A DNA stretch of 64,000 bases from a virus (IMGVR_UViG_3300045921_000730:1-64000), one strand, 5' to 3'; counted from the stretch's first letter, positions 29,954 through 63,654 are shown. Made by a program: numbers and translations. Notes: a model not told the origin generated them from the letters alone.

Positions 29954-30163
29954 ATGAACTACCGCGTAGCTAAAGACAACGCGGTTTCTGAACTCATCGA
30001 CCCAGCTAACATCACCGGCGCCTCCTTCGGTTTTTGTTTAGAGTCCGACTGCGTTCCACAACCAGACATTTTATTTATGACTACAAATTAATTAGATATC
30101 AATAGGCCAATTCATCCACGCGACTGAAGATCACGTGGTTTTCTCAGCCTTAAGTTTGATAAA
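29954..30163 (-). mobile_element. Mini-element family A, copy 1
   Basis: 210-bp unit in minus orientation: left-end hairpin CCACGTGA/TCGCGTGG preceded by TTTAT, late-promoter-like CATAAATA, a 36-codon frame ending ALSLATR-stop like the TnpB at 40818, and the right-end hairpin ACCGCG/CGCGGT closed by tagttcat. No nuclease gene. The 20 bases beyond the right end would be the guide if it makes an omega-RNA. Confidence 0.8.
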
Positions 30164-30186
30164 TGTACGCATGTGATTAACATTTT

Positions 30187-31350
30187 TTAATTATACTCTG
30201 TACCACCCTTACGAAGAAGATAATCTTCATTTACACTTTTGAGAATTACACGACCAAGCTCGATGTGTGTTCTTTCTTTGACAGGTTTTACAACAACCCC
30301 TTCTCGGACGTGAAGATTTTTTCCAGAAATTGTTTCTTTGCCAGATGTATATTGAAGCATAACTTCTCTCGAGAAAGGTCCGCGATAAATTAACGGAACA
30401 CTATTGATTCCCATTGCCATACATGCTTGAACCATATCATCATAATCATAATATAATTGTTTACCGCGATATCCAACAACCATATCAAAAGCACGAAAAT
30501 CCCTCTTATCAACATTGTAAGATAGATCTTGAACTCCTTTGCCAATCACTTCACCAAGAATAAACGTTGGAGAATCAATAACACCGCCGTCGTTTTTGAT
30601 CATGTTTACAAAACTTTCAAGCTTTTCAAATATTTGAAGTTCGGTAAGTGTCTTGATATAAACGTTGTCTTGATTTTTTATGTTGTCCTTAAAGCAAAGA
30701 CCTTTACTACCGAGTCCTTTACTAAACACAACAAACTTAGTACGAATATGGTTCTCGTTCCAATCTTTGTTTGGAAGGATTCCAATTGCACAAAAAGTTC
30801 CGTGTAGTTTTTCCGTCATTACGACTTCTTCGCCAAGCCGAAGAACGTCAGGAAAGTTTTTAAAATTTTCAATATCATAAGCAATCGTAAGATCTCTACC
30901 AGCATTGTATACTTCACCTGCAAACGTTGCTGGAATCGGAGGTTCCCATTTTACAATACCAAGAACTTCTGCAATGTCGTCTCCTTCCTTTACAGGAATT
31001 TCGCTCCCATCCTCAAGCATTAGATAAAAGTTCATAGATGAGGTGTGTTTTAATGAAAAAATTAACCCTTCACTTAATACCCCGCGAAGACGGATTTCTT
31101 TAACTCTGTTTCCAGTTTTACTAGCAAGTTTGCCTTTGTGGTTCTCGTAATCCCACAGGTTCAACTGTTTTAAAATCCATTCCGGAACAATTGAATTTGG
31201 AGGAATAAAGACAGCAAGATCACCTGCTTTATATTCACCCTTCTTTACGATGGAACGATAATCACCAATCACAGCTAGCTCAATAGCATCAGCATTAGCA
31301 ATTGGTTCAATGTCGCGAATCTTGCATACTTTTACAGAAAAAGTACTCAT
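30187..31350 (-). CDS. RNA ligase (DRB0094/Rnl5-like)
   Basis: 387 aa. N-terminal OB-like domain (SVKVCKIRDIEPIANADAIEL, YKAGDLAVFIPPNSIVP) followed by an adenylation domain with motif I EEVVMTEKLHGTFCAIG, a motif III-like FRAFDMVV and motif V EGVVVKPVKE. This layout matches the Deinococcus-type RNA ligase group found in many jumbo phages. Seals RNA nicks, perhaps repairing tRNAs cut by host defence. Confidence 0.85.
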   Translation of the reverse strand: MSTFSVKVCKIRDIEPIANADAIELAVIGDYRSIVKKGEYKAGDLAVFIPPNSIVPEWILKQLNLWDYENHKGKLASKTGNRVKEIRLRGVLSEGLIFSLKHTSSMNFYLMLEDGSEIPVKEGDDIAEVLGIVKWEPPIPATFAGEVYNAGRDLTIAYDIENFKNFPDVLRLGEEVVMTEKLHGTFCAIGILPNKDWNENHIRTKFVVFSKGLGSKGLCFKDNIKNQDNVYIKTLTELQIFEKLESFVNMIKNDGGVIDSPTFILGEVIGKGVQDLSYNVDKRDFRAFDMVVGYRGKQLYYDYDDMVQACMAMGINSVPLIYRGPFSREVMLQYTSGKETISGKNLHVREGVVVKPVKERTHIELGRVILKSVNEDYLLRKGGTEYN

Positions 31351-31438
31351 TTATTCACCCCGCTGTGTTGTGTGTATTTGCGATATCTATTAATTAGATC
31401 AATGTCATTATACTTTAAGTATACAAAAAGATCAATAA

Positions 31439-31900
31439 TTAAATTTTATCGCCATAAATCAAACACATGTCCCACATTGGCGTTCGAGGATTCAACGTTT
31501 GTTTTTCGTTGTTTACTCTATGAGGTTCCCATGCATAGTTTGAACTATCAATTGTCCATCTTTGGATTGACATTGCAAATTTGTTCTTGCAATCAATGCG
31601 CCAAAGTTGAGCAAATATTTTACCTGTTCCTTTAATTGGAACAGCAACATAAGGATCTTCGCGAATCCAAACTGAAATTTTCCCGTTTTCAATTTTTAAA
31701 GTTGATTTTTCATATGAAAATTTGTTACTGAATTGGTCTGCTTTAATGAAAACCCATTCGTTATTTCCAAATGAAGGGGGTTCCATTAACAAATCGTCGT
31801 CTGTTTCAGCACCAAATGCAGCATAGCAACCAAAGATTAAAGCAACTATAATGCACACTAAAATAAATTCTTTCCATTGACGTTTGGCATAGTAATCCAT
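31439..31900 (-). CDS. Membrane-anchored or secreted protein, adhesin-E-like paralogue
   Basis: 153 aa. N-terminal hydrophobic segment (FILVCIIVALIFGCYAAFGA) as signal anchor or uncleaved signal; then beta-rich NNEWVFIKADQFSNKFSY, AQLWRIDCKNKFAM and a final cysteine. Same order as the proteins at 10574 and 22090. Confidence 0.45.
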   Translation of the reverse strand: MDYYAKRQWKEFILVCIIVALIFGCYAAFGAETDDDLLMEPPSFGNNEWVFIKADQFSNKFSYEKSTLKIENGKISVWIREDPYVAVPIKGTGKIFAQLWRIDCKNKFAMSIQRWTIDSSNYAWEPHRVNNEKQTLNPRTPMWDMCLIYGDKI

Positions 31901-31928
31901 TTTTTAGTTCCTTTTCATTATCTGTTAT

Positions 31929-32147
31929 TTAATTCATCCGTTGTTCTTTAATGCAACGCGGATATTTTGCATTAATATGTTTTTTTACGGCTTGCATTGC
32001 TTCCTTACATTGTGCTTCTGTGTCGTATTCAATCATCAAAGTAATGTTTGTTGGTGGCGAAGCAGAAAGTGATTGATTTGGCGAAACGTGAATAAGACCA
32101 TAATAATTTGTATTTAAAATAAAACTAAGAATCCAAATTTCTTTCAC
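31929..32147 (-). CDS. Small hypothetical protein
   Basis: 72 aa: a beta-type N-terminus and a helix with two cysteines (EAQCKEAMQAVKKH...YPRCIK). Resembles short phage proteins that handle thiol residues; no family assigned. Confidence 0.4.
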   Translation of the reverse strand: MKEIWILSFILNTNYYGLIHVSPNQSLSASPPTNITLMIEYDTEAQCKEAMQAVKKHINAKYPRCIKEQRMN

Positions 32148-32231
32148 AAAAGATGTCTCCTATTAATTGGAAAAATAAATTATTGCCGAAGTAAAATTCG
32201 GCAATTTTCTGTTAAAATCAAAACAGATATG

Positions 32232-32615
32232 TTAATCATTCTCACGAAAATAATCTTCTAGTCGGAGTAAATGTTTAGATCCTGGAGTTGCATACCACCA
32301 TTCTTTTCCATCAAAAAGATATAAAAACATCCAACTTTTTTTATGAGCAAGCAAGTGATCAAGTTCTTTAAAATTTGTTGGTTTTACAATTTCCCAATCT
32401 TCCTTTTCGTCTCGAAAATAAAAAGTACTTTCTTCAATCAGATCTTCTATTGAAGAAGCATCGCCATATGAAATCAAATTACTAATTTTTTCATATGTGT
32501 TGTAGTGTGCATGCAGAGACTTTCCAACTCCTTCAGGATATCCATCATAATGGCAATAGATGGAGGTATATGTTTGATCTGGATTAATTGTTGCTACAAT
32601 AGCATTAGAAGACAT
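32232..32615 (-). CDS. Conserved hypothetical phage protein
   Basis: Start at the ATG 32615 (MSSNAIVATIN) because it has Shine-Dalgarno aaaggaaaa; an in-frame ATG five codons upstream is worse. Contains SIYCHYDGYPEGVGKSLHAHY, a signature of a widespread phage protein of unknown function (YCHWDGYPE.VG). 127 aa, soluble. Confidence 0.65.
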   Translation of the reverse strand: MSSNAIVATINPDQTYTSIYCHYDGYPEGVGKSLHAHYNTYEKISNLISYGDASSIEDLIEESTFYFRDEKEDWEIVKPTNFKELDHLLAHKKSWMFLYLFDGKEWWYATPGSKHLLRLEDYFREND

Positions 32616-32632
32616 TATTTTTCCTTTCAAAG

Positions 32633-32681
32633 AGTGAACTACGATTCATCTGAATCGCCACTCGTCTAAAGAACATGTGGC
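32633..32681 (-). repeat. Right-end scar
   Basis: On the minus strand gccacatgttctttagacgagtggc then ...gtagttcac: right-end loop ttctttagac with an extended arm. It sits between the promoter at 32703-32731 and the gene starting at 32615. Confidence 0.45.
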
Positions 32682-32702
32682 TTTTTTTGATGGTATTTGT
32701 AA

Positions 32703-32731
32703 ATAATACACTAACTAACAATCAATGTCAA
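32703..32731 (-). promoter_or_regulatory. Sigma70-type promoter
   Basis: Minus strand TTGACA (32731-32726), 17-base spacer, TATTAT (32708-32703), 88 bases upstream of the 32232-32615 gene. Confidence 0.55.
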
Positions 32732-33249
32732 CAACTAAATCCTTTGCTTAAATCTGTTCCCAGAAGGATTTTGTTTGCAAGAGAACTTCCCACTTTACCC
32801 AAAACAATTAATTGTTCTATGGAGTACATTTTGTGTGTGAAAGCATTTTCAACTACATCTCTTACGTATGAAAACTGTTGATATATCTTAGTATAAACAT
32901 TGGTAGAAGGTTCAATGTCCTTGCCAAGTTCATAAAAAGCATCTTTGCCTATTGAAATAAAGTATGAAGGCGATAAACCAAAGCGTTGTGCTACAAATGG
33001 CGTGAGTGATGAGATAAGTAAACAAGTATCACCCGTGTCTTTAAGGTGTTTATATTTTTCCAGCGTTGTCTCAGATGGAGCATATTTCATTTCAATTACC
33101 GATTTGTTGTATCCAAGAGATGGATCATCAAACTTATCTGCCGTAAGACGAACTACATAACTCTCAACATCTTCATCAAGAGGATGATTAATTTCTTGCT
33201 CGCTTTCTGTAATTAATTTATAACATGCTTGAAAGTAGTATCTGTTCAT
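32728..33249 (-). CDS. Hypothetical protein
   Basis: 173 aa. MNRYYFQACYKLITE has an I-T-E at position 15, compatible with the capsid-targeting pattern. Body mixed alpha/beta (CLLISSLTPFVAQRFGLSPSYF). No family recognised. Confidence 0.4.
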   Translation of the reverse strand: MNRYYFQACYKLITESEQEINHPLDEDVESYVVRLTADKFDDPSLGYNKSVIEMKYAPSETTLEKYKHLKDTGDTCLLISSLTPFVAQRFGLSPSYFISIGKDAFYELGKDIEPSTNVYTKIYQQFSYVRDVVENAFTHKMYSIEQLIVLGKVGSSLANKILLGTDLSKGFSC

Positions 33250-33316
33250 TGCATTTACACCTAATAATTCAAGAAAACTTAGTATTATTTATTGTGTTAA
33301 CCCAAGAAGCCAGCAT

Positions 33317-34114
33317 TCACTGCAGCTGCAAAGTTAAGCATTTTGCTCCACCGCCTGATTTTAAAAATTCAGTTAAAGGTACACGAATAACTTCATAATT
33401 TTTATAGTAAAGATGTGTTTCAAGTTGTTCCGACATGTTGTTAACAAAAATCGTATTTTCTACACACACCGCATTGCATGCAAACATCATTGCATCTTGC
33501 TGTGAAACAGCAATTGCTTTGTGTTGTAGAACTGAAGAAATTAAAAGGTTACTTTTTTCATCAAATGCTTCGGGATAATAAAGAACATCACCTCCTGAAA
33601 GAGGGCAAAAGCATGTGTCCAAGTGATAGAATTTAGGATTAATTAATTTTAGTTGGTGTAAATTTGGAAGATGCTGTTGCAAAATATCTGTGGCTTGTTT
33701 TGTGCCTCTAAAACCATAACCATACCAATATTGGTTTTGAGCATCTTTTAAACATTCGCCAGCACCTTCAAATAAGTCTGGAATGTCAATTACATTCCAT
33801 CCATTTTGTTTAAACCATTTCATAAAATATGGTTTTTCTTGTTTTCTTTCTTTATTAGCAAATTCTCCAAATAAAGCCACGTTGTTTTTAATATCACACA
33901 AAGCACCATTTGCTGTAAAAACCATATCAGGCAAATTTTTTATTGGGTCGATCAATTCAACAATTGCATATTTTTTGATAGTATTATAAAAATTTTCCCA
34001 TTGCTCAACAGCCAACTCATGACTTACATTGTGGATGTTCCCTTTCATCCAAGGGTTAATAACATAGTTAACATCGAAGTATTTGGGACGACACATTAAG
34101 AGTTTTGTTTTCAT
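33317..34114 (-). CDS. Amidinotransferase/DDAH-like enzyme
   Basis: 265 aa five-bladed propeller pattern of the guanidine-modifying superfamily: DMVFTANGAL, FEGAGECL, a His in YHLDTCFCPLSGGD, and the C-terminal nucleophile in SGGGAKCLTLQL. Closest in style to dimethylarginine dimethylaminohydrolases, which hydrolyse modified arginine, or to arginine deiminase-like enzymes. Unusual cargo for a phage. The substrate is inferred. Confidence 0.8.
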   Translation of the reverse strand: MKTKLLMCRPKYFDVNYVINPWMKGNIHNVSHELAVEQWENFYNTIKKYAIVELIDPIKNLPDMVFTANGALCDIKNNVALFGEFANKERKQEKPYFMKWFKQNGWNVIDIPDLFEGAGECLKDAQNQYWYGYGFRGTKQATDILQQHLPNLHQLKLINPKFYHLDTCFCPLSGGDVLYYPEAFDEKSNLLISSVLQHKAIAVSQQDAMMFACNAVCVENTIFVNNMSEQLETHLYYKNYEVIRVPLTEFLKSGGGAKCLTLQLQ

Positions 34115-34173
34115 ACGATTACCTCATGAGTTTGACATCTAATAGTTAATGTGTTTAATTTTTTTGGTAAAAA

Positions 34174-34197
34174 AAGAGGAGACATATGTCTCCTCTT
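34174..34197 (-). terminator. Rho-independent terminator
   Basis: Perfect 24-base palindrome aagaggagacat/atgtctcctctt, followed on the minus strand by seven Ts. Ends the transcript of the secreted-protein genes at 34269-35612. Confidence 0.85.
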
Positions 34198-34268
34198 ATT
34201 TAAGACTCTTTAGAAAACTGATGTTGTCTAAAGACTGTTAGTTTTTTGAGTTATTTATACAAAACCTA

Positions 34269-34877
34269 TTAATTGCTTGTCTTTACAGTCTTACCAAAAC
34301 CATCAACAACAGGCTTATTGACTACAACCTTTTGCATTTCGTCGTCACGTAGAGCGCATGGCTGTCCAACACGCTTGTAAGCAGCACGAACAACTTCGTT
34401 TTCACACATAACTTCCTTGGCTGCTGCTGTATCGCCAAACGTACGAAGTTCACGAGCGTTCAGACGGTTAACGCAATCGGTGTCCTTCCAAGTTGTGCCA
34501 GCTGAGAAACCAAAACCAACACCAGCACCGCCAATTGACGTTGAACCCATACACGTTTCAGTTAGAGTTGTTGTTAGGTTTGGAGCAACAACACCCGGTA
34601 CATTCTTGAGCTCATATCCGCCTTGATAACGAACAGTAGTTTCGGCTGGGTTGTTAATTGTTAGAGCTTGGTTGTTGCCTTGCAGCTGACCTTGAACGGT
34701 TGTGTTATTGGTGCTTGAAGAAACACCACTAACAGAAGAATTGCTATTAGCTTGTGTGCCAGAAGCAAAACCAGAATTGTTTTGCGTTTGAGCATAAGCT
34801 GGATTAACACCAGCAACCGTTACAACACCAACTAAAGTTGCTACTGCGCCTGCATAAAAAAGATCTAGAATTTTCAT
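34269..34877 (-). CDS. Secreted protein with signal peptide
   Basis: 202 aa. Signal peptide (AVATLVGVVTVAGVNPAYA), an Asn/Ser/Gln-rich linker, then a conserved region with four cysteines: TETCMGSTSIGGAGVGFGFSAG, DCVNRLNARELRTFG, MCENEVVRAAY, PCALRDDE. Similar proteins occur in other large phages. Shine-Dalgarno aggagaaat. Exported to the periplasm or virion surface; role unknown. Confidence 0.6.
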   Translation of the reverse strand: MKILDLFYAGAVATLVGVVTVAGVNPAYAQTQNNSGFASGTQANSNSSVSGVSSSTNNTTVQGQLQGNNQALTINNPAETTVRYQGGYELKNVPGVVAPNLTTTLTETCMGSTSIGGAGVGFGFSAGTTWKDTDCVNRLNARELRTFGDTAAAKEVMCENEVVRAAYKRVGQPCALRDDEMQKVVVNKPVVDGFGKTVKTSN

Positions 34878-34907
34878 TTTATTTCTCCTATAAAGTATTT
34901 AACAATG

Positions 34908-34931
34908 GGCAGGAGAAATATTTCTCCTGCC
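34908..34931. repeat. Perfect palindrome between two secreted-protein genes
   Basis: ggcaggagaaat/atttctcctgcc, 24 bases, in the 70-base gap between the genes at 34269 and 34950. On the minus strand no T-run follows, so it is more likely an mRNA-processing or stabilising hairpin than a terminator. Confidence 0.6.
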
Positions 34932-34949
34932 TTTTACTACAACACAAAA

Positions 34950-35612: not shown

Positions 35613-35690
35613 ATTTTTTTCCTTTCAAAAAAGTTAAATTACTTATTCGTTCATTACTGAACTTGACAACAACTTACCACAGATCAAAAC

Positions 35691-35891
35691 TGGACTACTG
35701 CTTGTTCTTAAGAAGAAGCAGAGGTCACCTAATGACAACCGTGATTCCTGCTTCATCGTGGCATCTACTTCAGCCACTCCACAGGCGTAGATTCGGCCAG
35801 TCCCCAACCTATATATTTTATTTTTTTGTACTCATTTGTTGCAAAATGGGTTCTTAATTAAAATTATAACAGACTTTCATCCACTTGTCAA
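35691..35891 (-). mobile_element. Family B unit, copy 1: promoter + tnpB 3' remnant + right-end hairpin
   Basis: Minus orientation. A consensus promoter TTGACA (35891-35886), 17 bases, TATAAT (35868-35863) leads into a stretch whose translation (RIYACGVAEVDATMKQESRL) is a typical TnpB C-terminus. It is closed by the right-end hairpin. About 80% alike to 40355-40551 by eye. It fills most of the 367-base gap upstream of the 34950-35612 gene and provides that gene's most evident promoter. May encode an omega-RNA. Confidence 0.7.
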
Positions 35892-35979
35892 CAACAACTT
35901 GTCAATTTTTAATTATTCTTAACAAAAACTTACTTTCTGAGCCGAATTCCTTACAACAGAACTCGTATTTTCACAGACA

Positions 35980-36207: not shown

Positions 36208-36247
36208 ATTGTATTTGTTTTTCTGTGAAAGACGATAAATAGTATAA

Positions 36248-37477: not shown

Positions 37478-37681
37478 TGAACCTGTATAAATAAAATCGT
37501 ATGGGACAGCCCAGTCACCTGTAGCTGAGGTTGGAGTTCCTGCTAAGAACTTCCTAACCATACATCTATTTATGCAAAAAGATATTTGGTCATCGCTTCT
37601 ATATAATTTTTACAGGAATTTTATAGTTGTTGATTGAAATGGAAATTTACATACAATATTGATACTTTAAGGAAGACAACG

Positions 37682-37873: not shown

Positions 37874-37952
37874 GTTAAAATTTTCAAAAAAAGATGAATT
37901 AAACAAGCACATACAGACAAATTAATACTTCTGTGATTTGTCGTAAGCAGAA

Positions 37953-37984: not shown

Positions 37985-38005
37985 ATTGGGTAAAATAACT
38001 TCAGC

Positions 38006-38568: not shown

Positions 38569-38779
38569 ATGAACTACCACGCAGTTAAAGACGACACGGT
38601 TTCCGAACTTATCGACCCAGCTAACATCACTGGTGCCTCCTTCGGTTTTTGTTTAATGTCCGACTGCGTCCCACAACCAGACATTATCATTTATAATCAT
38701 AAACCAATTAGATACCATTGTGTTGATTCGTCCATATGACTGAAGATCATGTGGTTTTCTCAACCTTAAAGACAATAAA
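38569..38779 (-). mobile_element. Mini-element family A, copy 2
   Basis: Divergent copy (about 85% like copy 1 by eye). Right-end stem ACCGTG/CGTGGT is kept by two G-U pairs. Left end preceded by TTTTAT. Promoter-like TATAAATG instead of CATAAATA. Lies 98 bases upstream of the lipoprotein gene, same orientation. Confidence 0.75.
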
Positions 38780-38803
38780 ACTTCTATTTTTTTATTAGGG
38801 TTT

Positions 38804-40344: not shown

Positions 40345-40354
40345 TATAATACTA

Positions 40355-40551
40355 CTGAACTACCACTTGTTCTTAAGAACAACTGGGGTCACCCAACGGT
40401 AACCTTGATTCCTGTTTCATTGTGGCATTTATTTCAGCCACTCTACAGGAGTAAATTCGGCCAGTTCCCAACCTATATGTTTTATTTGTTTCCATTTGTT
40501 GCAAAACGTGTTCCTAATTAAAATAATAACACACTTTCATCCACATGTCAA
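40355..40551 (-). mobile_element. Family B unit, copy 2
   Basis: Same unit as 35691-35891: promoter TTGACA (40551-40546), 17 bases, TATTAT; TnpB-C-terminus-like frame (MKQESRLPLGD... ending in TAA in the hairpin), right end ttgttcttaagaacaagtggtagttcag. It fills most of the gap upstream of the beta-barrel gene. The -10 is about 245 bases before the barrel gene start, as in copy 1. Confidence 0.7.
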
Positions 40552-40580
40552 CAAGTAGGATTTGTGTGGATAGTACTAAG

Positions 40581-40817: not shown

Positions 40818-42083
40818 CTACCGCGTAGCTAAAGACAACGCGGTTTTCCTGCTCCCCATGTCAACTCCAAAAATGCTTGAAGATCTCTCGATTTTAGCGA
40901 CATGTTTTTGCAAGGACGTTGGGATCACTCCCACTTCGGGCATCTCACCCGAAGGAATAAGTTGATCATAGCAATCTAGCTGACCAAAGTTTTTAATGTT
41001 GATAGCAGCATTTAAGTCTCGATCATGTTCAGTACCACAACCAGGGCAATGCCATTCCCGAGTACCAAGATCAAGTTTCTCAAGTTTGTGCCCACAGCAC
41101 GAACACGTCTTGCTAGATGGAACAAACGGATCAATTTGATGGAATGTCCTACCAGCAGAGGCTGACTTGCAGGAAATCATGGAAACAAGCGTTGACCAAG
41201 CAGTTTCATGGATTTTTCTTGAGAGTTTTCTGTTCTTCAACATTCCAGAAGCATTCAAGTTCTCCATGTAAATGGTATCAAAGTTTTGAATCAAGTAGGA
41301 GCTAATGTTGTGGTAGTACCAATTTCTAATGTTGGCAATCTTCTCGTAGCACTTAGCTACTTTGATTCGTTGAGCTTCTCTGTTCTTACTGCCTTTAGTC
41401 TTTCTTGCTAAAATGCGCTGCTGCTTCTTAAGTGCTAACTTGGCTTTCGCTAGCATTGCTTCAGGATGTTGGAATTTGAGTCCGGTTGAAAGGACGCAGA
41501 GGTCCTTCAAACCAAGATCAATCCCCACTTCTTGCTCGGTAGAAGGTAGAACTGAAACATCTTCTTCTACCAAGATGGAAACAAAAAACTTACCTGACGG
41601 AGTCTTTGACACTGTAGCTGATTTGATGGTTCCTTCGAACTTTCTGTCTAGAGCAATCTTGACATTCTTGATCTTTGGTAACTTGACTGTGCTGTTCTCA
41701 AAATCAACTTTGACATCACGAGTCCTGTAGGACTGATAATTTGATTTAGACTTGAATCTGGGTGCTTGTAGCTTTGGACCTTTTCGTTTTCCGGTGATAG
41801 AATTTAAGAAGTTTTGGTATGCTGTGTGCAGGTCTTCGGCTGCATGTTTCAAACACCAGTCGTCAATTTCTCTGAGCCAAGCAGTTTCTGGTTGTTTCTT
41901 GAGTTGAGTAATCTGTACGTTGATGTCGTAGTTGTTCAGATGTTTTTCTTTGTTGGCAAATCGTTGTTTGTTTTCGTGGAGGTAATGGTTGAAAATCCAA
42001 CGCTTGGCACCAAAGAACTGTGTTAGCAGCGCCTCTTCTGCTTTGTTTGGATACAACCTATACTTGTATGCTCTTAATTCCAC
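40818..42083 (-). CDS. tnpB: TnpB nuclease, copy 2
   Basis: 421 aa from a GTG at 42083 (MELRAYKYRLYPNKAEE). RuvC-I VGIDLGLKDLCVLS, RuvC-II IYMENLNASGML, zinc ribbon CSCCGHKLEKLDLG...CPGCGT, RuvC-III EHDRDLNAAINI: all catalytic acids present. Its last codons (TALSLATR-stop) form the right-end hairpin, so the omega-RNA scaffold would overlap the 3' end of the gene. N-terminal third is nearly identical to the copy at 50149. Confidence 0.92.
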   Translation of the reverse strand: MELRAYKYRLYPNKAEEALLTQFFGAKRWIFNHYLHENKQRFANKEKHLNNYDINVQITQLKKQPETAWLREIDDWCLKHAAEDLHTAYQNFLNSITGKRKGPKLQAPRFKSKSNYQSYRTRDVKVDFENSTVKLPKIKNVKIALDRKFEGTIKSATVSKTPSGKFFVSILVEEDVSVLPSTEQEVGIDLGLKDLCVLSTGLKFQHPEAMLAKAKLALKKQQRILARKTKGSKNREAQRIKVAKCYEKIANIRNWYYHNISSYLIQNFDTIYMENLNASGMLKNRKLSRKIHETAWSTLVSMISCKSASAGRTFHQIDPFVPSSKTCSCCGHKLEKLDLGTREWHCPGCGTEHDRDLNAAINIKNFGQLDCYDQLIPSGEMPEVGVIPTSLQKHVAKIERSSSIFGVDMGSRKTALSLATR

Positions 42084-42448: not shown

Positions 42449-42660
42449 ATGAACTACCACGAAGCTAAAAACTTTATGGTTTCCGAGCTCATCGACTCGA
42501 CCTAACCGCATCGACGCCTCCTTCGGTTTTTGTTTAATGTCCGACTGCGTCCCACAACCAGACATTTTATTTATGACTACAAATTAATTAGATACCAATG
42601 TGCTGATTCATCCATGTGACTGAAGATCACGTGGTTTTCTCAACCTTAAGTTTGATAAAT
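42449..42660 (-). mobile_element. Mini-element family A, copy 3 (degenerate)
   Basis: Same layout; the 36-codon frame is shifted by indels near 42500, so it cannot be a conserved protein, yet the right-end stem ACCATAAAG/CTTCGTGGT remains pairable. Left end preceded by TTTAT. Lies 88 bases upstream of tRNA-Asn, same orientation. Confidence 0.75.
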
Positions 42661-53621: not shown

Positions 53622-54620
53622 TCATGCAAAAGTTGTTGTAATTACACGACCCTTACGCTCGAAAGATGATGGAACTAAACTATCAACAACAAACGCTCTC
53701 TGAAGCCATCTATCAAACCCATTGAATTTTGCTTTAAAAGGAGTTCTTCCATGAACGGCAACGTTATTATCAACAATTAGCAAATCGCCTGGCTCTAAAC
53801 ATATAGAGACATATTGTTGATTAACAATGCTCTGTAACTCCTTTAGTGCGTTTGTTGCTTCTTCATTTATGCCAACCATCAAATCTTCATCATAGACAAA
53901 TTTTGTTTTATCATGATTGAATACCGACATTAACGGACCAAATTTTCCTTCATTGGTACCAGGCGGTAAAAAAGATTTGTCAGGTCTTGTTTTGAACAGC
54001 GGTTGCGTCAATAAATCAATTGTTTTTTGTGAAGCATGTTCTAAAATTATATCTTTATGACATAATAAAGTGTAAGCATTATTATCACCGCGTAAACACA
54101 TAAGAAACAAATATGATGGCATGTAAGGGTGAAATGCTTGTTCTGTATGAAATGCTAAATGTACAGAAGATGATGTCGATTGTTGTGTTGTTGAATTTTG
54201 TTTAACAGGAAGTATGTTCTGAACAATTGTTCCGCCGTGTTCTGGAAGATAACCTATTGGTTCTCCGAAGAATTTTGCAATACTTAACAACAACATTTCC
54301 GAAACGAAAGTTTTTGTTGTGGGCGTTGTTGGTGTTATAGGCGTTTGTGGAAGATCATCTATAAGCAGATTTTTTAATAGAATGCCACCGGAAGAACTTG
54401 AATACAACTTAAATAAGTTTAAAAAATCTTGAAGATTAAAATACTGACCAACATTAACATGATATTTCGTATAACTTTCCAGAGCCGTTGTTTTCCATTT
54501 TAATATTTTTTTCTGTTCTTTTTCAACTAACGACATAAACCCCACCACGTCTTCAAACGGAGACAGTGGTGGTGGATTAATATTTTCTGATAACACATAA
54601 TAAGTTGGTAATTTAAACAT
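53622..54620 (-). CDS. Fe(II)/2-oxoglutarate oxygenase (TauD/clavaminate-synthase-like)
   Basis: 332 aa. Metal triad: HTEQAFHPYMPSYLFLMC (HxE) and the distal His in VDNNVAVHGRTPF, followed by the 2OG-binding Arg in FDRWLQRAFV. This pattern is that of the AsnO/VioC group, which hydroxylate Asn or Arg. Start MFKLPTYYVLSE also fits the capsid-targeting pattern. A rare phage gene; substrate unknown. Confidence 0.8.
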   Translation of the reverse strand: MFKLPTYYVLSENINPPPLSPFEDVVGFMSLVEKEQKKILKWKTTALESYTKYHVNVGQYFNLQDFLNLFKLYSSSSGGILLKNLLIDDLPQTPITPTTPTTKTFVSEMLLLSIAKFFGEPIGYLPEHGGTIVQNILPVKQNSTTQQSTSSSVHLAFHTEQAFHPYMPSYLFLMCLRGDNNAYTLLCHKDIILEHASQKTIDLLTQPLFKTRPDKSFLPPGTNEGKFGPLMSVFNHDKTKFVYDEDLMVGINEEATNALKELQSIVNQQYVSICLEPGDLLIVDNNVAVHGRTPFKAKFNGFDRWLQRAFVVDSLVPSSFERKGRVITTTFA

Positions 54621-54639: not shown

Positions 54640-54849
54640 ATGAACTACCGCGTAGCTAAAGACAACGCGGTTTCCGAACTCATCGACCCAGCTAACATCA
54701 CCGGCGCCTCCTTCGGTTTTTGTTTAGAGTCCGACTGCGTTCCACAACCAGACATTTTATTTATGACTACAAATTAATTAGATACCAATAGGCCGATTCA
54801 TCCATGTGATTGAAGATCACGTGGTTTTCTCAGCCTTAAGTTTGATAAA
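54640..54849 (-). mobile_element. Mini-element family A, copy 4
   Basis: Near-identical to copies 1, 5 and 6. TTTAT at the left boundary. Right end only 20 bases upstream of the oxygenase start, same orientation. Confidence 0.85.
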
Positions 54850-55446: not shown

Positions 55447-55656
55447 ATAAACTACCGCGTAGCTAAAGACAACGCGGTTTCTGAACTCATCGACCCAGCT
55501 AACATCACCGGCGCCTCCTTCGGTTTTTGTTTAGAGTCCGACTGCGTTCCACAACCAGACATTTTATTTATGACTACAAATTAATTAGATACCAATAGGC
55601 CGATTCATCCATGTGATTGAAGATCACGTGGTTTTCTCAGCCTTAAGTTTGATAAA
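55447..55656 (-). mobile_element. Mini-element family A, copy 5
   Basis: Near-identical to copy 4; the terminal g of gaactacc is replaced (aaactacc). TTTTAT at the left boundary. Right end 26 bases upstream of the endolysin start, so copies 4 and 5 bracket the endolysin gene as 210-bp direct repeats. Confidence 0.85.
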
Positions 55657-55808
55657 ACAAAATGTCACCGCAAGCACCGCTTGTCTATCCACGTGGGTTT
55701 AAAATGGACATAAAAGTTAACGCCAGTTGTATTTTTGATGAAAATTGTGTAAACTACGGTCATGTAATAAATGTTGTGTTTGATAAATTGAAGAAAGAAG
55801 TGGACAAC

Positions 55809-56576
55809 ATGAATACTGAGATTCAACGAATTGTAGATTTTCGTGGGAACCAGCATTGGTACTTGAATGGAAAACTTCATCGTGAAGATGGACCTGCTGT
55901 TATCAATGCTGATGGTTCTGAAGAATGGTACTTGAATGGAAAACGACATCGGGTAGATGGACCTGCAATTACTTGCAACAGAGGGTCTAAAGATTGGTAC
56001 TTGAATGGAAAACGGCACCGTGAGGATGGGCCTGCAATTATTTTAGCTGATGGGACTCAAATCTGGTATCTAAAAGGAAAACTCCACCGCAAAGATGGAC
56101 CGGCGGTTATCTATCCCGACGGGTCTAAACGTTGGTACAACCACGGAAAATATCATCGCGAAGATGGGCCTGCCTATATTAACAGCGATGGTTCTGAGCA
56201 ATGGTACTTGCACGGGAAACTCCATCGCGAAGATGGGCCTGCAGCTATTCGTAGTGATGGATCTGAAGAATGGTACTCACACGGGGTACTTCATCACGAA
56301 GATGGACCTGCGGTTATTCGCAACGATGGTTCTGAGTATTGGTATATGTATGGAAAACTTCATCGTGAAGATGGACCTGCTGTTATTAATGCTGATGGTT
56401 CTAAATATTGGCATAAACACGGGAAACTTCATTGTGAAAATGGACCTGCTGTTATCAATGCTGATGGGTCTAAGGTTTGGTACCTATATGATGTCAAACT
56501 TTCCTTTAATGAGTGGTTAGAAAGATTGAAATTCAATGAAGAAGAGAAACTATTATTAATTCTGAAGTTTGTATGA
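55809..56576 (+). CDS. Tandem-repeat protein (MORN-like WYxxGKxHREDGPA repeats), paralogue 1
   Basis: 255 aa from the ATG at 55809 (MNTEIQRIVDFRGNQ), chosen by comparison with its paralogues; an in-frame ATG at 55662 is less likely. About nine 23-residue repeats of the type WYLNGKLHREDGPAVINADG, then a capping segment EWLERLKFNEEEKLLLILKF. Resembles MORN_2-like repeats seen in phages and giant viruses. A rigid beta-scaffold for binding is inferred. The ~150 bases before it hold no supported gene. Confidence 0.7.
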   Translation: MNTEIQRIVDFRGNQHWYLNGKLHREDGPAVINADGSEEWYLNGKRHRVDGPAITCNRGSKDWYLNGKRHREDGPAIILADGTQIWYLKGKLHRKDGPAVIYPDGSKRWYNHGKYHREDGPAYINSDGSEQWYLHGKLHREDGPAAIRSDGSEEWYSHGVLHHEDGPAVIRNDGSEYWYMYGKLHREDGPAVINADGSKYWHKHGKLHCENGPAVINADGSKVWYLYDVKLSFNEWLERLKFNEEEKLLLILKFV

Positions 56577-56616
56577 ACAACGGTTAACATAACACAACAA
56601 AACAGAAACAAGTGAC

Positions 56617-57384
56617 ATGAATATTGAGATTGAGCCAGTCGTAGATTCTGAAGGAAATCGGTATTGGTACTTGAACGGGGAACTTCGCCGCGAAGATGGA
56701 TCTGTGGTTATGTATAACAACGATTCTGAGTATTGGTATGTGAACGGAAAACTTCACCGCAAAGATGGACCTGTCGTTGTTTATAGTGATGGTTCTGAGA
56801 TCTGGTATTTGGATGGAAAACGACATCGGGTAGATGGACCTGCAATTGTTTATAACGATGGTTCCGAAGAATGGTACTTCAACGGAAAACTTCACCGTGA
56901 AGATGGACCTGCCATTGTTTATAGCAATAGTTCAAAACATTGGTATAAACATGGAAAACGACATCGCACAGATGGGCCTGCAATTGTCTATGTTGATGGC
57001 ACCAAAGAATGGTATCTTAATGGAAAGCGACACCGGCTAGACGGACCTGCTATTATCAGTGCTACTGGTACTGAAGAATGGTACTTGAATGGAGAACGAC
57101 ACCGTGAAGATGGACCTGCGGTTGTGTATAGCGATGGGTCTAAGCGTTGGTATAAACATGGGAGATACCATCGTGAAGATGGACCCGCCATTGTTTATAG
57201 CAATGGTTCTCAATATTGGTACTTGAATGGAAAGCGACACCGGGAAGACGGACCTGCAATTGTCCATGGAGATGGTACTATGTTGTGGTTTTTAAATGAT
57301 ATTAGATTCTCTTTTGAGAAATGGTTAGAAAAAAGCAATTTTAGTGAAGAAGAAAAGCTACTTTTGATTCTGAAGTTTGGATAA
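56617..57384 (+). CDS. Tandem-repeat protein, paralogue 2
   Basis: 255 aa (MNIEIEPVVDSEGNRYWYL), about nine repeats, cap KWLEKSNFSEEEKLLLILKF. A 40-base spacer from gene 1 is homologous to the 40-base spacer to gene 3, so the array arose by tandem gene duplication. Repeat DNA is about 69 bp per unit and diverged, giving room for recombination. Confidence 0.7.
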   Translation: MNIEIEPVVDSEGNRYWYLNGELRREDGSVVMYNNDSEYWYVNGKLHRKDGPVVVYSDGSEIWYLDGKRHRVDGPAIVYNDGSEEWYFNGKLHREDGPAIVYSNSSKHWYKHGKRHRTDGPAIVYVDGTKEWYLNGKRHRLDGPAIISATGTEEWYLNGERHREDGPAVVYSDGSKRWYKHGRYHREDGPAIVYSNGSQYWYLNGKRHREDGPAIVHGDGTMLWFLNDIRFSFEKWLEKSNFSEEEKLLLILKFG

Positions 57385-57424
57385 ACAATGCTTAACACAG
57401 CGCGCCAAAATAAAAACAAGCGAC

Positions 57425-57916
57425 ATGAACACTGAACTTAAACGAATTGTAGATTCCCATGGGAACCAACTCTGGTACTTGCACAGTGTGCTTCACCGTG
57501 AAGATGGACCTGCGATTATATATCGTGATGGTTCCGAGTGTTGGTATAAACATGGGAAATACCATCGCGAAGATGGACCTGCTATTGTGTATAGTAATGG
57601 TAATAAGTACTGGTACTTGAACGGAAAACTTCATCGTAAAGATGGACCTGCAATTGTCTATAACAATGGTTCTAACTTGTGGTACTTGAATGGAAAACTC
57701 CATCGTGAAGATGGACCTGCGATTGTGTATAATGATGGTACCAAGTATTGGTACTTGCACGGGAAGCTTCATCGGGAAAATGGACCTGCTATTATTAGTG
57801 CCGACGGTTCTGAAAAATGGTACTTAGGTGGTGTTGAGTTTACTTTTAATGAATGGTTAGAAAAAGTCAAAACCAGCGAAGAAGAGAAACTATTATTAAT
57901 TCTGAAATTTAGATAA
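57425..57916 (+). CDS. Tandem-repeat protein, paralogue 3 (shorter)
   Basis: 163 aa from the ATG at 57425 (MNTELKRIVDSHGNQ), about five repeats, cap EWLEKVKTSEEEKLLLILKF. The start is preceded by aaacaagcgac as in paralogue 2. The changed repeat number between paralogues suggests slippage or selection. Confidence 0.7.
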   Translation: MNTELKRIVDSHGNQLWYLHSVLHREDGPAIIYRDGSECWYKHGKYHREDGPAIVYSNGNKYWYLNGKLHRKDGPAIVYNNGSNLWYLNGKLHREDGPAIVYNDGTKYWYLHGKLHRENGPAIISADGSEKWYLGGVEFTFNEWLEKVKTSEEEKLLLILKFR

Positions 57917-58051
57917 AAATGATAGAGTGAACAGCGTTCAGGGATACAAGTAGCTTTGTTGAAGTGTTGAGCAACTTTGATAAATTTTTGTGAACTTACA
58001 TAATTGTTGTAGAAACAAACCGCATAAATACTATAAAAAGGGTATTGAATT

Positions 58052-59161: not shown

Positions 59162-59174
59162 AAGGAGAAAAACT

Positions 59175-59300
59175 ATGTTAGGATTTATTACTGGTGTTGT
59201 TGTTGGTGTTGTTGTTGGTGCAGCATTTGCACCATTTTGGATTAAAGTTTTTAATACTGGAAAACAAAAGGTAGAAAAAATTTTTGAAAAGAAAAACTAG
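59175..59300 (+). CDS. 41-aa single-pass membrane peptide
   Basis: Start at the ATG 59175, Shine-Dalgarno aaaggaga. MLGFITGVVVGVVVGAAFAPF is a Gly-Val transmembrane helix with a basic tail (KQKVEKIFEKKN). Typical phage membrane peptide; followed by a terminator. Confidence 0.6.
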   Translation: MLGFITGVVVGVVVGAAFAPFWIKVFNTGKQKVEKIFEKKN

Positions 59301-59326
59301 TTGTCTTTTAAAAACAATTTATATAT

Positions 59327-59367
59327 GATTCTGCTGTGTACTAATATACGGCAGAATCAATTTTTTT
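59327..59367 (+). terminator. Rho-independent terminator
   Basis: Stem gattctgctgt/acggcagaatc with a T7 run at 59361-59367. The family A copy 6 begins in its T-run. Confidence 0.85.
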
Positions 59368-59574
59368 ATCAAACTTAAGGCTGAGAAAACCACGTGATCT
59401 TCAGTCACGTGGATGAATCAGCACATTGGTATCTAATTAATTTGTAGTCATAAATAAAATGTCTGGTTGTGGAACGCAGTCGGACTCTAAACAAAAACCG
59501 AAGGAGGCGCCGGTGATGTTAGCTGGGTCGATGAGTTCGGAAACCGCGTTGTCTTTAGCTACGCGGTAGTTCAT
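59365..59574 (+). mobile_element. Mini-element family A, copy 6
   Basis: Plus orientation, near-identical to copy 1. TTTAT at the left boundary is part of the terminator T-run. Right end 40 bases upstream of the gene at 59614, same orientation. Confidence 0.85.
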
Positions 59575-59613
59575 AAATTTGTGTGATTTAAAAGATAAAG
59601 GTTTAAAATCAAA

Positions 59614-60372
59614 ATGATTAAACATCCCCTGTTTCCCAACGGAAACATCTATCTTTCTGGCGGCATGCAACATGCTCGTGACCTTGGGACTGGTTGGAGG
59701 AAAATTTGTAGTGAACGTTTAAAACAGCTTGGTTTTTTTCCAATTGATATTGCTGATTTAGACATCAAATATTCACAGACTCATGGAGAACTTTACCGTT
59801 TTATATCTGACGATGAACTTCTCCAACGAAAATCAAACATCAGAAAACATTTTATTGAAACAGATATTAATTTAATTAGAAATGATACTGACGCTTTGAT
59901 TGTTCTATATGATGAAAGTGTAAGGCTCGGCGCAGGAACCACAAGCGAAGTTCACGAAGCATTTATGTTAGATATTCCAACATTTTTAATTAATAAATAC
60001 AAATCTCTTTCTGAGATTCCTGGTTGGATGCAAGCGGAAACAACAAAAATATTTAACGAGTGGGAAGATTTATATTCGTATCTTGAAAATCTTCCTTCGG
60101 GCATTTTAAAACGAGACATTTATGGAAATCGTCGTTCTGGAAATTTTTATCTCTGTTCTCTCTGTGGAGCAGTTGAAGAAAAACACAAAACGCACTATGT
60201 ATCAAAAATCTCGCCTCTATATTGTAAAACATGTGTTGAACTAGTGAAAACAACACACGAAACACATTATGACAGATACAAATTTTTCTTAGACTGCCTT
60301 GAGGCTGAAGCAGCTACTGAATACAAACGATCTTTTGCAAACGATCAACAACGAATCCATAATGACGATTAA
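59614..60372 (+). CDS. Nucleoside 2-deoxyribosyltransferase-like protein with zinc ribbon
   Basis: 252 aa. N-terminal NIYLSGGMQHARDLGTGWRK, a central FIETDINLIRNDTDALIVLYD and LGAGTTSEVHEAFML are the deoxyribosyltransferase/SLOG-like fold (DALIV.YD, GT..E). C-terminal CSLCGAVEEKHK...YCKTCVEL is a zinc ribbon. Possibly base exchange in deoxynucleosides or nucleotide sensing. Confidence 0.65.
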   Translation: MIKHPLFPNGNIYLSGGMQHARDLGTGWRKICSERLKQLGFFPIDIADLDIKYSQTHGELYRFISDDELLQRKSNIRKHFIETDINLIRNDTDALIVLYDESVRLGAGTTSEVHEAFMLDIPTFLINKYKSLSEIPGWMQAETTKIFNEWEDLYSYLENLPSGILKRDIYGNRRSGNFYLCSLCGAVEEKHKTHYVSKISPLYCKTCVELVKTTHETHYDRYKFFLDCLEAEAATEYKRSFANDQQRIHNDD

Positions 60373-60462
60373 CTATATTTGTGACGTATCAAACAAAAAT
60401 TTGTCAAATTTTTAATATGCTTTTGTCATTGCAACAAACACAAACAAATAAGGAAAATTATT

Positions 60463-60789
60463 ATGCCATACATTAAACAACAAAGTCGTGATGTACTCGA
60501 TCCTTGTATTTTAAATTTATTAAATGCACTTCGTGAACTCGAAAGTGATGATGAAAAAAATAGCATGAGTGGAAATTTAAATTATGTTTTCACCAAACTT
60601 CTTGCTACAATTTATGGTTCCGGCAATTACGATGATCGAAGCGATGCGATCAAAACGTTGGAGTGTGCAAAGATTGAATTTTATCGCAAATACATGCAAC
60701 AATATGAAGATCAAAAAGAATTTGAAAATGGATCAGTTGACGTGTGCCTGGAACCAATCATAACAACAACGGGAGTTGTTAAAAAGTGA
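60463..60789 (+). CDS. Conserved phage protein (DUF6899-like)
   Basis: 108 aa. MPYIKQQSRDVLDPCI, GNLNYVFTKLLATIY, and IEFYRKYMQQYEDQKEFENG are the signature of a short protein common in large phages. Shine-Dalgarno aaggaaaat. Overlaps the next start as GTGA. Function unknown. Confidence 0.65.
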   Translation: MPYIKQQSRDVLDPCILNLLNALRELESDDEKNSMSGNLNYVFTKLLATIYGSGNYDDRSDAIKTLECAKIEFYRKYMQQYEDQKEFENGSVDVCLEPIITTTGVVKK

Positions 60790-61313
60790 AAATCTTTGAA
60801 ATTTTAACACAAAGTAAGGGCACATATGCTGGTGTAAGATATGATGCTGATTCTGTCAATAGACTTAAAAATTTTATTGTACAACACAAAATCCCAAATC
60901 CGATTAAACCACAAAATTTCCATACAACATTACTTTATAGTAGAAAATATTTACCAAACTATAAGCCATGCGGGAAATTACAAACACCATTTTCTGTTAT
61001 CCCAAGCGAATTTGTTATCTGGAAAACCAACGCGTCTGGCGGTGCTGAAAATAACTCACCTCAAACTAATTGTCTTGTACTTAAATGTCAATCGTCCGAT
61101 CTGGTTAACAGACACAATGAATTAATGAATATTCATCAAGCAATATATGATTATCCCGAATATGTGCCACATATAACGCTATCGTACGATGTTGGTGATT
61201 TTGATATATCTACTCTCTCAGCTCCTCACACCATCGGTACTCTTTATGCGGACGAAGAGTATGGTGAGGAATTAAATTTAAACTGGGCAAAAACAAAAGG
61301 AACAAAACAATGA
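60786..61313 (+). CDS. 2H phosphoesterase-like protein, Acb1 candidate
   Basis: 175 aa from a GTG. Two HxT motifs: NFHTTLLYSRKYLP (His46/Thr48) and VPHITLSYDVGDF (His129/Thr131), the twin catalytic pairs of 2H phosphoesterases. Length and order resemble T4 57B (Acb1), which cuts the cyclic nucleotides of CBASS. The N-terminus MKIFEILTQ is like the capsid-targeting motif but lacks the Glu. Anti-CBASS role is inferred. Confidence 0.65.
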   Translation: MKIFEILTQSKGTYAGVRYDADSVNRLKNFIVQHKIPNPIKPQNFHTTLLYSRKYLPNYKPCGKLQTPFSVIPSEFVIWKTNASGGAENNSPQTNCLVLKCQSSDLVNRHNELMNIHQAIYDYPEYVPHITLSYDVGDFDISTLSAPHTIGTLYADEEYGEELNLNWAKTKGTKQ

Positions 61314-61675
61314 ATGAATTTCCTTATTTATCAATGGTTGCAGCATCTGAAATATCTGAAGAAGATAAACAATCATTTAAACTTTTGTCAGATAAAGCAA
61401 TCAAGTTCGGTTTTGTTGAACGTTTGTCTAACGAAGGAATACTTCAAGCAATTGAAAACATTGCATATGAAATCGCAAAAATGTCTCTTTACACTTTTTT
61501 TAAAAATCCTGATGTTGCAGAATTTACTACGCCGGAAGAATTTTATGAAGATGAAGTGATAGGCGAGGATCTTGAAAAACTTGACGAAATTATTTGGAAC
61601 GTTGCTTTAGCGTCTGGAATCCATCCCGATCTGTTAAATGTTATGATTGATGTAAAGTGCGATGAATTTATATAA
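61310..61675 (+). CDS. Hypothetical acidic protein
   Basis: 121 aa, helical and acidic (FTTPEEFYEDEVIGEDLEKL). ATGA overlap with the 2H gene, so coexpressed. Not recognised; acidic small partners of this type could be inhibitors or adaptors. Confidence 0.45.
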   Translation: MNEFPYLSMVAASEISEEDKQSFKLLSDKAIKFGFVERLSNEGILQAIENIAYEIAKMSLYTFFKNPDVAEFTTPEEFYEDEVIGEDLEKLDEIIWNVALASGIHPDLLNVMIDVKCDEFI

Positions 61676-61772
61676 TCAATTCAAGAAAACCTGATGTTCT
61701 TTAGACGTCAGGATGAATTGAATTTTTTAGTCCTCTTGAGTTTCAATATACCGTTTAATTGTCTCACTATTA

Positions 61773-61780
61773 TATAAATA
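61773..61780 (+). promoter_or_regulatory. Late-promoter-like TATAAATA before tnpB
   Basis: Exact motif 27 bases before the ATG at 61807. Confidence 0.5.
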
Positions 61781-61806
61781 ATATATGACAAAGGTATTTA
61801 TATAAA

Positions 61807-62997
61807 ATGTTCATCAGACAAAATTACAGAATATATCCTAACAAAGAGCAGACCTCAATTCTGAACCAATGGCTTGGTCAGGGTAGATATATTTGGAATT
61901 TCATGTTAACCAAGAACATAGAAACATACCAAGAAACTAAAAAGTTTATTTTTGAAATAGACATGAATAATCTTCTACCTGGTTTGAAACGGCAAGAAGA
62001 AACATCTTGGTTAAAAGAAATACCAGCACAATGTTTACAACAGAAGTGTCAAGATTTGTCACAAGCATTAAAACAGTCTTTTAAGACAAATAAAAGCAAA
62101 AAGGGATTTCCAAAATTTAAGTCAAAAAAGACTGATGAATCTGGCATCAGATTCCCATCATTCAAATTTGAGGGTGACAGGATCAAGTTACCTAAAATGT
62201 CACAAGGAATCAAAATTAAGTTACATCGTGATTTGCTTGGGAAGAAATCATCAGTTACTATATTTCGAGATAAAACCGGAGTCTTCTGGGCATCTATACT
62301 TGTTTCTATTGATGATGTTGTCCCAACGAACACTATTTCTAATGTGGTAGGTATTGATGTCGGATTAAAAGAATTCGCGGTCACATCAGACGCTGAAATA
62401 ATCAAAAACCCGAAATTTCTAAAAAGAACGGCAAAGAAACTAGCAAAAGCTCAAGCAAAACATAGTAGAAAAGAAAAAGGTTCGTCAAACAAAGAAAAAC
62501 AAAGAATTAAAGTTGCAAAAATTTACAGAAAAATAAGCAATCAACGTAAAGATTTTATCAATCAAGTTGCTAGTTCGATAGGCAAGACAAACGACTTGAT
62601 TGTAGTTGAAAATCTCAATGTAAAAGGTATGATGAAAAATCCTAACCTAGCTAAATCTATTTCAGATGTTAGTTGGGGAATGTTTTTATCCGCTTTAAAG
62701 TGGCATTGTAAGAAACGGGGCAAACACTTCGTTGAGATTTCACAATGGTATCCTTCAAGCAAAATGTGTTCATGTTGTGGAAATAAAAAATCAGATTTGT
62801 CCTTGAGCGACAGAACATACGAATGTAAAGAATGTGGTTTCACGATGGATAGAGATTTAAATGCTGCCATTAACATTCTGAAAGAAGGTATCAACCTTTT
62901 CAATACCGTAGGAACTACGGAAATTAACGCCTGTGGAGATATGAGTTCTGAAGTAGGGAACTCAGCCCAGGAAGCTAGTTGTTCTTTAGACAACTAG
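61807..62997 (+). CDS. tnpB: TnpB nuclease, copy 5
   Basis: 396 aa, ATG (MFIRQNYRIYPNKEQ). RuvC-I VVGIDVGLKEFAVTSD, RuvC-II LIVVENLNVKGMM, zinc ribbon CSCCGNKKSDLS...CKECGF, RuvC-III MDRDLNAAINIL. The C-terminal INACGDMSSE...SCSLDN resembles the family B and solo-scar peptides, so this copy or a relative is the likely source of those. More A/T-rich and diverged from the other four. Confidence 0.92.
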   Translation: MFIRQNYRIYPNKEQTSILNQWLGQGRYIWNFMLTKNIETYQETKKFIFEIDMNNLLPGLKRQEETSWLKEIPAQCLQQKCQDLSQALKQSFKTNKSKKGFPKFKSKKTDESGIRFPSFKFEGDRIKLPKMSQGIKIKLHRDLLGKKSSVTIFRDKTGVFWASILVSIDDVVPTNTISNVVGIDVGLKEFAVTSDAEIIKNPKFLKRTAKKLAKAQAKHSRKEKGSSNKEKQRIKVAKIYRKISNQRKDFINQVASSIGKTNDLIVVENLNVKGMMKNPNLAKSISDVSWGMFLSALKWHCKKRGKHFVEISQWYPSSKMCSCCGNKKSDLSLSDRTYECKECGFTMDRDLNAAINILKEGINLFNTVGTTEINACGDMSSEVGNSAQEASCSLDN

Positions 62998-63025
62998 CAG
63001 TTCACAGATAAACTGTTAAAAAAAT

Positions 63026-63065
63026 GATCTGTCGCTTGTCTGAAAAACAAGTGGGATTCGGGTGC
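63026..63065 (-). repeat. Right-end scar (CACCCGAATC type), reversed
   Basis: On the minus strand gcacccgaatcccacttg, then tttttcagacaagcgacagatc; same unit as 11494 and 21243. The terminal tagttcag is changed to cagatc. Confidence 0.45.
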
Positions 63066-63131
63066 ATCTTACTAAAGAAATAATCGACGCATTGGTGAGC
63101 AATAACGGTTGACTGAATACTTAAAATCGAC

Positions 63132-63139
63132 TATAAATA
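63132..63139 (+). promoter_or_regulatory. Late-promoter-like TATAAATA before the tmRNA
   Basis: Exact motif just upstream of the tmRNA acceptor piece. Confidence 0.55.
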
Positions 63140-63144
63140 TATAT

Positions 63145-63438
63145 GTTAGTGAGTAATCACTGACAATGAGTGTATGAAGCAATCTGTAGACGGGCAAGAC
63201 ACGAGTTCGAATCTCGTCGCCTCCACAAATATTAACTCATGGGGGCGTTATGGAATCGATTGACGGGCGAAGGAAAGTGGACACTTCGAGAGACGACTGA
63301 CGTAATCAGCGTAAAACCTTAAATGCAAACGATGCATTTTATAATGAGGAATTCCGCCTAGCAGCGTAAACCTCAGGGGGAGCGTAGATTCCTTCTTACC
63401 CAACATCTACCGAAAGGACAGTCTTAAGACTGTCCTTT
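63145..63438 (+). ncRNA. ssrA: Two-piece (circularly permuted) tmRNA
   Basis: The acceptor piece comes first: T arm ACGAG TTCGAAT CTCGT and acceptor 3' strand CGCCTCC + A (63201-63225). After a 15-base intervening stretch comes the coding piece, whose 5' end GGGGGCG (63241-63247) pairs with it. The third pair is G-U (63243/63222), the alanine identity element. The tag frame, resume codon GCA at 63325, reads ANDAFYNEEFRLAA-stop. A terminator follows. CCA is not encoded. This order is that of permuted alphaproteobacterial ssrA. Rescues stalled ribosomes and tags proteins for proteolysis. Confidence 0.9.
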
Positions 63439-63446
63439 TTGTTTTT
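63413..63446 (+). terminator. Rho-independent terminator of the tmRNA
   Basis: aaaggacagtctt/aagactgtccttt, then tttgttttt. Confidence 0.9.
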
Positions 63447-63654
63447 ATCATCTTCAGGGCTGAGAAAACCACGTGATCTTCAGTCGCGTGGATGAATCAG
63501 CCCATTGGTATCTAATTAATTTGTAGTCATAAATAGTAATGTCTGGTTGTGGGACGCAGTCGGACTCTAAACAAAAACCGAAGGAGGCGCCGGTGATGTT
63601 AGCTGGGTCGATGAGTTCGGAAACCGCGTTGTCTTTAGCTACGCGGTAGTTCAT
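63444..63654 (+). mobile_element. Mini-element family A, copy 7
   Basis: Plus orientation. Starts in the tmRNA terminator T-run (TTTAT). Left flank differs (catcttcagggctgag), rest as in copy 1; promoter-like CATAAATA kept. Right end 93 bases upstream of the ClpP-like gene, same orientation. Confidence 0.85.

Follow-up and report, generated by a model that had tools for sequence, protein, structure and literature searches.

Stand-alone omega-RNA mini-elements as candidate TnpB guide-RNA genes in a giant phage genome

The DNA analyzed here, a stretch of 64 kb that we call the window, is the first part of a 244,293-bp virus record (244 kb) belonging to a giant phage, in which a tail sheath is encoded. 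An earlier note had described seven mini-elements of ~210 bases in the window. The presence of all seven was confirmed, and left-end and right-end hairpins were found in every one of them, together with the box CATAAATA (TATAAATG in the copy at 38569). The identity of the window copies to the one at 59365 was 87-98% over 200-214 bp, far above chance.

29954..30163, - strand: mini-element copy 1, with left end, late-promoter-like box, omega-RNA scaffold and right end; TTTAT to its left
38569..38780, - strand: mini-element copy 2, diverged, with box TATAAATG
42449..42659, - strand: mini-element copy 3, diverged, frame lost and structure kept
54640..54849, - strand: mini-element copy 4, right end ~20 bp before the start of the gene at 53622-54620
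55447..55656, - strand: mini-element copy 5, right end TTTAT, the usual left-flank motif
59365..59574, + strand: mini-element copy 6, ~40 bp upstream of the gene at 59614-60372
63444..63654, + strand: mini-element copy 7, directly 3' of a tmRNA-like gene
168464 (-), 195366 (+), 202026 (+), 233126 (+) and 243114 (-), record positions: other copies of the family

The number of seven holds for the window, but the family in the whole record amounts to 12 copies and a relic at 153540. One of them, at 168464, is devoid of a left end. The sequence TTAT is found immediately to the left of 11/11 copies having a left end, which fits the fixed-motif insertion of IS200/IS605 elements. A pair of right-end-like hairpins (record 195292-195345 and 195630-195683) lies on either side of the mini-element at 195366. 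The tmRNA-like gene (window 63118-63441, + strand) matched the Rfam permuted tmRNA RF04321 with 121 bits and the beta tmRNA with 108 bits, and ends 2 bp before the mini-element at 63444; ARAGORN gave no report of it. Other repeats were also apparent. A 346-aa ORF at window 81-1121 is repeated, whole or in part, at record positions 64454, 86888, 119640 and 169730, with no Pfam or PHROG match. In a near-identical relative (L044, 6692-7460) regions located here at 12 kb and 206 kb are joined at a copy of this type of ORF, which suggests a rearrangement there. Besides, a long array of 69-bp (23-codon) repeats runs through neighbouring ORFs at window 55792-57921.

Seven TnpB genes were identified in the record, and no Y1 transposase was found when the 244-kb record was searched. 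The earlier note had assumed a single resident TnpB as partner of the mini-elements, the one located inside the window, and had pointed out that the short frame of the copies ends like it:

40818..42083, - strand: TnpB gene of another lineage, 35% identical as protein to the TnpB at 231805

A resident partner does appear to exist, but it is a different gene. The TnpB gene at 40818 has left-end and right-end hairpins in common with the family but not the 5' part of the scaffold, and shares only approximately its last 35-40 bp with the copies. We have rejected it as cognate partner and replaced it by the TnpB at 231805-233025 (- strand), outside the window, since the 3' end of this gene is 97% identical to the copies over the last 118 bp. 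Its product can be aligned to ISDra2 TnpB across the nuclease domain, HDRD motif included. TnpB 231805 is likely to use the RNAs of the copies in trans. A DNA search near tnpB 40818 gave, among the matches listed, only those of the neighbouring tRNA-Asn. Two further groups of IS605-like sequences were noted. Family B, a second IS605, comprises the TnpB at 61807 and short derivatives with both ends (61665-63005, 99524-99761, 136477-136658 and 160002-160113), and the one at 99524 looks like an internal deletion retaining the tnpB tail. Family C consists of a TnpB and right-end fragments (record 233838-235061, 35689-35894, 40352-40554 and 201897-202021).

The proposal that the 3' part of each mini-element is an omega-RNA scaffold was borne out by its similarity to the 3' end of tnpB 231805 and by a covariance model, a check that the earlier note had suggested, built from 12 sequences. 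The scaffold is ~114 nt long:

29954..30067, - strand: omega-RNA scaffold of copy 1, 141.7 bits (copy used in building the model)
38569..38682, - strand: omega-RNA scaffold of copy 2, 133 bits
42449..42563, - strand: omega-RNA scaffold of copy 3, 126.8 bits
54640..54753, - strand: omega-RNA scaffold of copy 4, 142.4 bits
55447..55560, - strand: omega-RNA scaffold of copy 5, 139.2 bits
59461..59574, + strand: omega-RNA scaffold of copy 6, 142.4 bits
63541..63654, + strand: omega-RNA scaffold of copy 7, 141.9 bits
59575..59590, + strand: predicted 16-nt guide of copy 6 (in the other copies alike, the 16 nt past the right end), its length set by analogy with ISDra2 (PMC8612924)

The model also matched TnpB 3' ends in other phage contigs, with 92.7 and 52.7 bits. 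The stems covary, and the aligned copies show some compensatory changes. In other phages 30-31 of 32 pairs are kept when the arms are aligned by hand, a procedure biased towards structure, and pairs are lost in the control, in which arms were swapped between lineages. A loop-to-tail pseudoknot was apparent as well, with GAA facing TTC or GAG facing CTC, apart from a small number of variants. At the third base of the loop, the pair was A-U in 29 distinct sequences and G-C in 7, with no exception, although these counts do not equal a number of events because the sequences are related; both phage contigs and a Desulfobacterales genome are represented in the G-C set. This is the same tie as in the structure of ISDra2 TnpB (PMC10097598), in which a loop ~100 nt further upstream is base-paired to the guide-proximal tail. 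No Rfam family matched the scaffold in the window at the gathering threshold. Our analysis indicates that the copies almost certainly encode omega-RNA scaffolds. Two stand-alone scaffold copies with a left-end-like hairpin were also seen, at L151 2586-2696 and L167 1501-1611 (Desulfobacterales MAG); by eye both have sigma-70-like boxes ending ~8 nt before the scaffold, and a promoter was flagged by a scan in L167 only.

The mini-elements had also been described as holding a 36-codon frame, MSGCGTQSDSKQKPKEAPVMLAGSMSSETALSLATR. It is identical in five window copies, but its end is altered in the one at 38569 (SSLTAW) and it is frameshifted in the one at 42449. An intact frame in several copies could be taken as a sign of small protein genes yielding a functional peptide. 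We find this highly improbable, because the variable sites are spread 10/9/9 over the codon positions, without any coding signal, because several copies have lost the start codon or the frame and retained the structure, and because what it encodes is the C-terminal tail of TnpB 231805-233025. The mean difference was 0.081 in the 5' scaffold against 0.187 in the spacer. As the earlier note had maintained, it is RNA structure rather than protein that appears to be conserved, and the frame is best read as a by-product.

Upstream of the scaffold, each window copy carries the box that had been likened to a late promoter:

30072..30079, - strand: CATAAATA box of copy 1, with a 5-nt spacer to TCTGG
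38688..38695, - strand: TATAAATG box of copy 2, with a 6-nt spacer
42568..42575, - strand: CATAAATA box of copy 3
54758..54765, - strand: CATAAATA box of copy 4
55565..55572, - strand: CATAAATA box of copy 5
59449..59456, + strand: CATAAATA box of copy 6
63528..63535, + strand: CATAAATA box of copy 7

In 12/12 copies of the record the sequence ATAAAT(A/G) is found 5, 6 or 8 nt upstream of TCTGG, the start of the scaffold, although these are not twelve independent observations of a common promoter because the copies share ancestry. The two components of a T4-type late promoter are present, a TATAAATA-like box at a suitable distance and, at 128318-129040, a gp55-like late sigma factor encoded by the phage (phrog_234, E 4.5e-28). 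From the start distance of T4 late promoters, transcription would be expected to begin with the first base of the scaffold or one adjacent to it. The box is also found within 80 bp of 6/7 tnpB genes versus 22/221 other predicted genes (p 1.3e-5). Late transcription of the copies is likely.

We gathered further scaffold loci in viral contigs by pattern scans. Among them, stand-alone copies having an equally spaced box were found in L135, L136/L142/L143 (one orthologous locus), L138, L140 and L146, all but the last representing four phage lineages other than this one. The box is not universal, since many stand-alone copies in other contigs lack it (L139, L144, L149, L173, L174, L177, L181 and L183). 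Among TnpB-fused copies it was present in 0/~10, a contrast with the stand-alone ones that is weak when taken alone (p 0.04, a value that predates the classification of the second scan); the box has a background frequency of 0.0002 per position, and its fixed spacing in stand-alone copies is far from that. Inspection of the 200 bp upstream in L135, L136, L138 and L140 revealed no left end resembling the one of the mini-elements. Some contigs with stand-alone copies, which may be fragments, had no visible TnpB. Comparing L136 and L142 at their orthologous locus, we found 5/111 differences in the scaffold, 0/13 in the promoter and 0/16 in the guide versus 105/900 in the flanks. Promoter, scaffold and guide together gave 5/140 against the same 105/900 (p 0.001), a contrast slightly understated because the 900 flank sites include promoter and guide. 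We considered whether a terminator-like hairpin after the L138 guide closes a complete small-RNA gene and discarded this, as the hairpin reads better on the opposite strand.

One case of occupied and empty alleles in close relatives was available. The contig L146 contains a mini-element that is missing here (~122371) and on either side of it is 98.5-99.2% identical to the record, a comparison that rests on blastn blocks and on the junction sequences. The occupied junctions read ATTTAT/element...TTCAT/CTGCGCC and the empty one in this record ATTCAT/CTGCGCC, so that the sequence proposed as guide for the copy in L146 lies uninterrupted in this record. This match does not amount to evidence of cleavage, because insertion geometry alone produces it. 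As to the T/C difference in the motif, it could be a single-base substitution or what a recombinational loss left behind. No near relative covering the window copies was found through the endolysin and RNA-ligase neighbours. When phage records were searched at the DNA level with the element, there was no match, and an exact search of viral contigs with its core gave none either.

The properties of the mini-elements could also be explained if they were non-autonomous IS200/IS605 passengers (PATE/MITE-like) in which the omega-RNA is a leftover that TnpB does not use. They would be kept and spread because both ends are present and because they supply a late promoter and a 5' leader downstream. 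The TTAT to the left of copies having a left end agrees with this, and PATE-like elements with a tnpB end and a right end are known (PMC7290912). In 11/12 copies the next gene 3' has the same orientation, often 19-93 bp away (p 0.006), and a mini-element may serve it as promoter and leader; this arrangement fits a passenger promoter and a guide role alike, and both can hold together. Against mere passengers, the 77-nt 5' part of the scaffold, which is not obviously needed for transposition, varies no more than the end hairpins, the stand-alone copies keep the pseudoknot and the covariation of the stems, and copies without a visible left end persist, one of them with a conserved guide. We regard this explanation as rather unlikely. 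That the RNAs are decoys, occupying and inhibiting TnpB from the host or from rival elements as RNA anti-CRISPRs do, is much less probable still. Solitary phage RNA mimics of CRISPR repeats are known (Racrs, PMC10651486) and the contigs with stand-alone copies and no TnpB in sight would suit them, but this phage encodes an intact cognate TnpB. Besides, the copies have a complete scaffold, and in the one orthologous pair in which this could be tested the 16 nt next to it are conserved, which would be unnecessary for a decoy.

The earlier reading is partly supported as a whole, and we favour, with moderate confidence, that the mini-elements are stand-alone TnpB guide-RNA genes, transcribed late and acting in trans, with homing or the exclusion of phages without the insertion as a plausible role. 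They would derive from an ancestral loss of the tnpB reading frame between the left end and the omega-RNA, with a T4-type late promoter now placed to start transcription at the first scaffold base, and would still be mobile as IS200/IS605-type elements. As no Y1 transposase was found in the record, new insertions would need one from the host or from another element. The gp55-like sigma factor would transcribe the guide genes late, along with the box-bearing tnpB gene, and TnpB 231805-233025 or a close relative would bind the scaffold in trans and take the adjoining ~16-20 nt as guide. Such a guide would fit the uninterrupted insertion site. Related genomes without the element would therefore be cut, and then repaired from, or out-competed by, genomes bearing it, while copies located just upstream of genes could double as promoter and 5' leader. 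We infer homing, gene drive or exclusion from the known behaviour of TnpB (PMC8612924, PMC11870625). A wider version is possible, and we put it forward tentatively: a distributed system of the phage, in which one late-expressed TnpB would be armed by many separate guide genes behind late promoters, every one of them directed against the insertion-free allele of a rival phage, and in some phages the guide genes would have become fixed, apparently without a left end, and conserved with their guides.

Two points are the main ones that this explanation leaves unexplained. The guide of the copy at 55447 would in principle match its own locus, and an active TnpB should cut there, because the TTTAT of its right end is the usual left-flank motif. 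At ~122371 cutting is uncertain, since the empty allele has TTCAT and the occupied one TTTAT. Within this genome we noticed no second target that carried the expected motif, and a search for self-targets gave many low-complexity near matches, none of them meaningful by inspection.

Cas12 is regarded as a descendant of TnpB, whose guide is as a rule linked to the gene of the nuclease itself. If the interpretation is right, guide genes detached from the nuclease, multiplied and with promoters of their own would be a natural intermediate between transposon guides and multi-guide immune systems, and phages could exclude relatives at many sites. The loci offer guides, scaffolds and one empty target that are directly testable. 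Stand-alone (trans) omega-RNA loci of IscB are a similar case, being guide RNAs without an adjoining nuclease gene, although with a different nuclease family and in a bacterial host. A close relative in RNA is the omega-RNA (reRNA) of ISDra2 TnpB, with a scaffold of 116 nt compared with the ~114 nt found here, both comprising ~115 nt from the tnpB 3' end and the right end (PMC8612924, PMC10097598). The loop-to-tail pseudoknot is common to both, and the guide is expected in both from the DNA past the right end. Unlike ISDra2, the RNA occurs here without tnpB in cis, in twelve copies, each with its own late-promoter-like box. The PATE-like elements of IS605 are also short, consist of a left end, the last part of tnpB and a right end, and are movable in trans (PMC7290912), whereas in the mini-elements the part that is kept matches an omega-RNA scaffold over its full length, with a putative promoter at the 5' end, and the family is amplified in a phage genome. 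In the plasmid TnpB gene drive (PMC11870625), TnpB aimed at the uninterrupted site likewise favours the copies bearing the element, but there nuclease and guide belong to one element, while here the guides would be distributed over many loci, with one nuclease and in a virus. A phage homing endonuclease (PMC11620839) is also a phage nuclease that interferes with co-infecting relatives; its target is specified by the protein, and the one proposed here would be specified by RNA and defined by the insertion.
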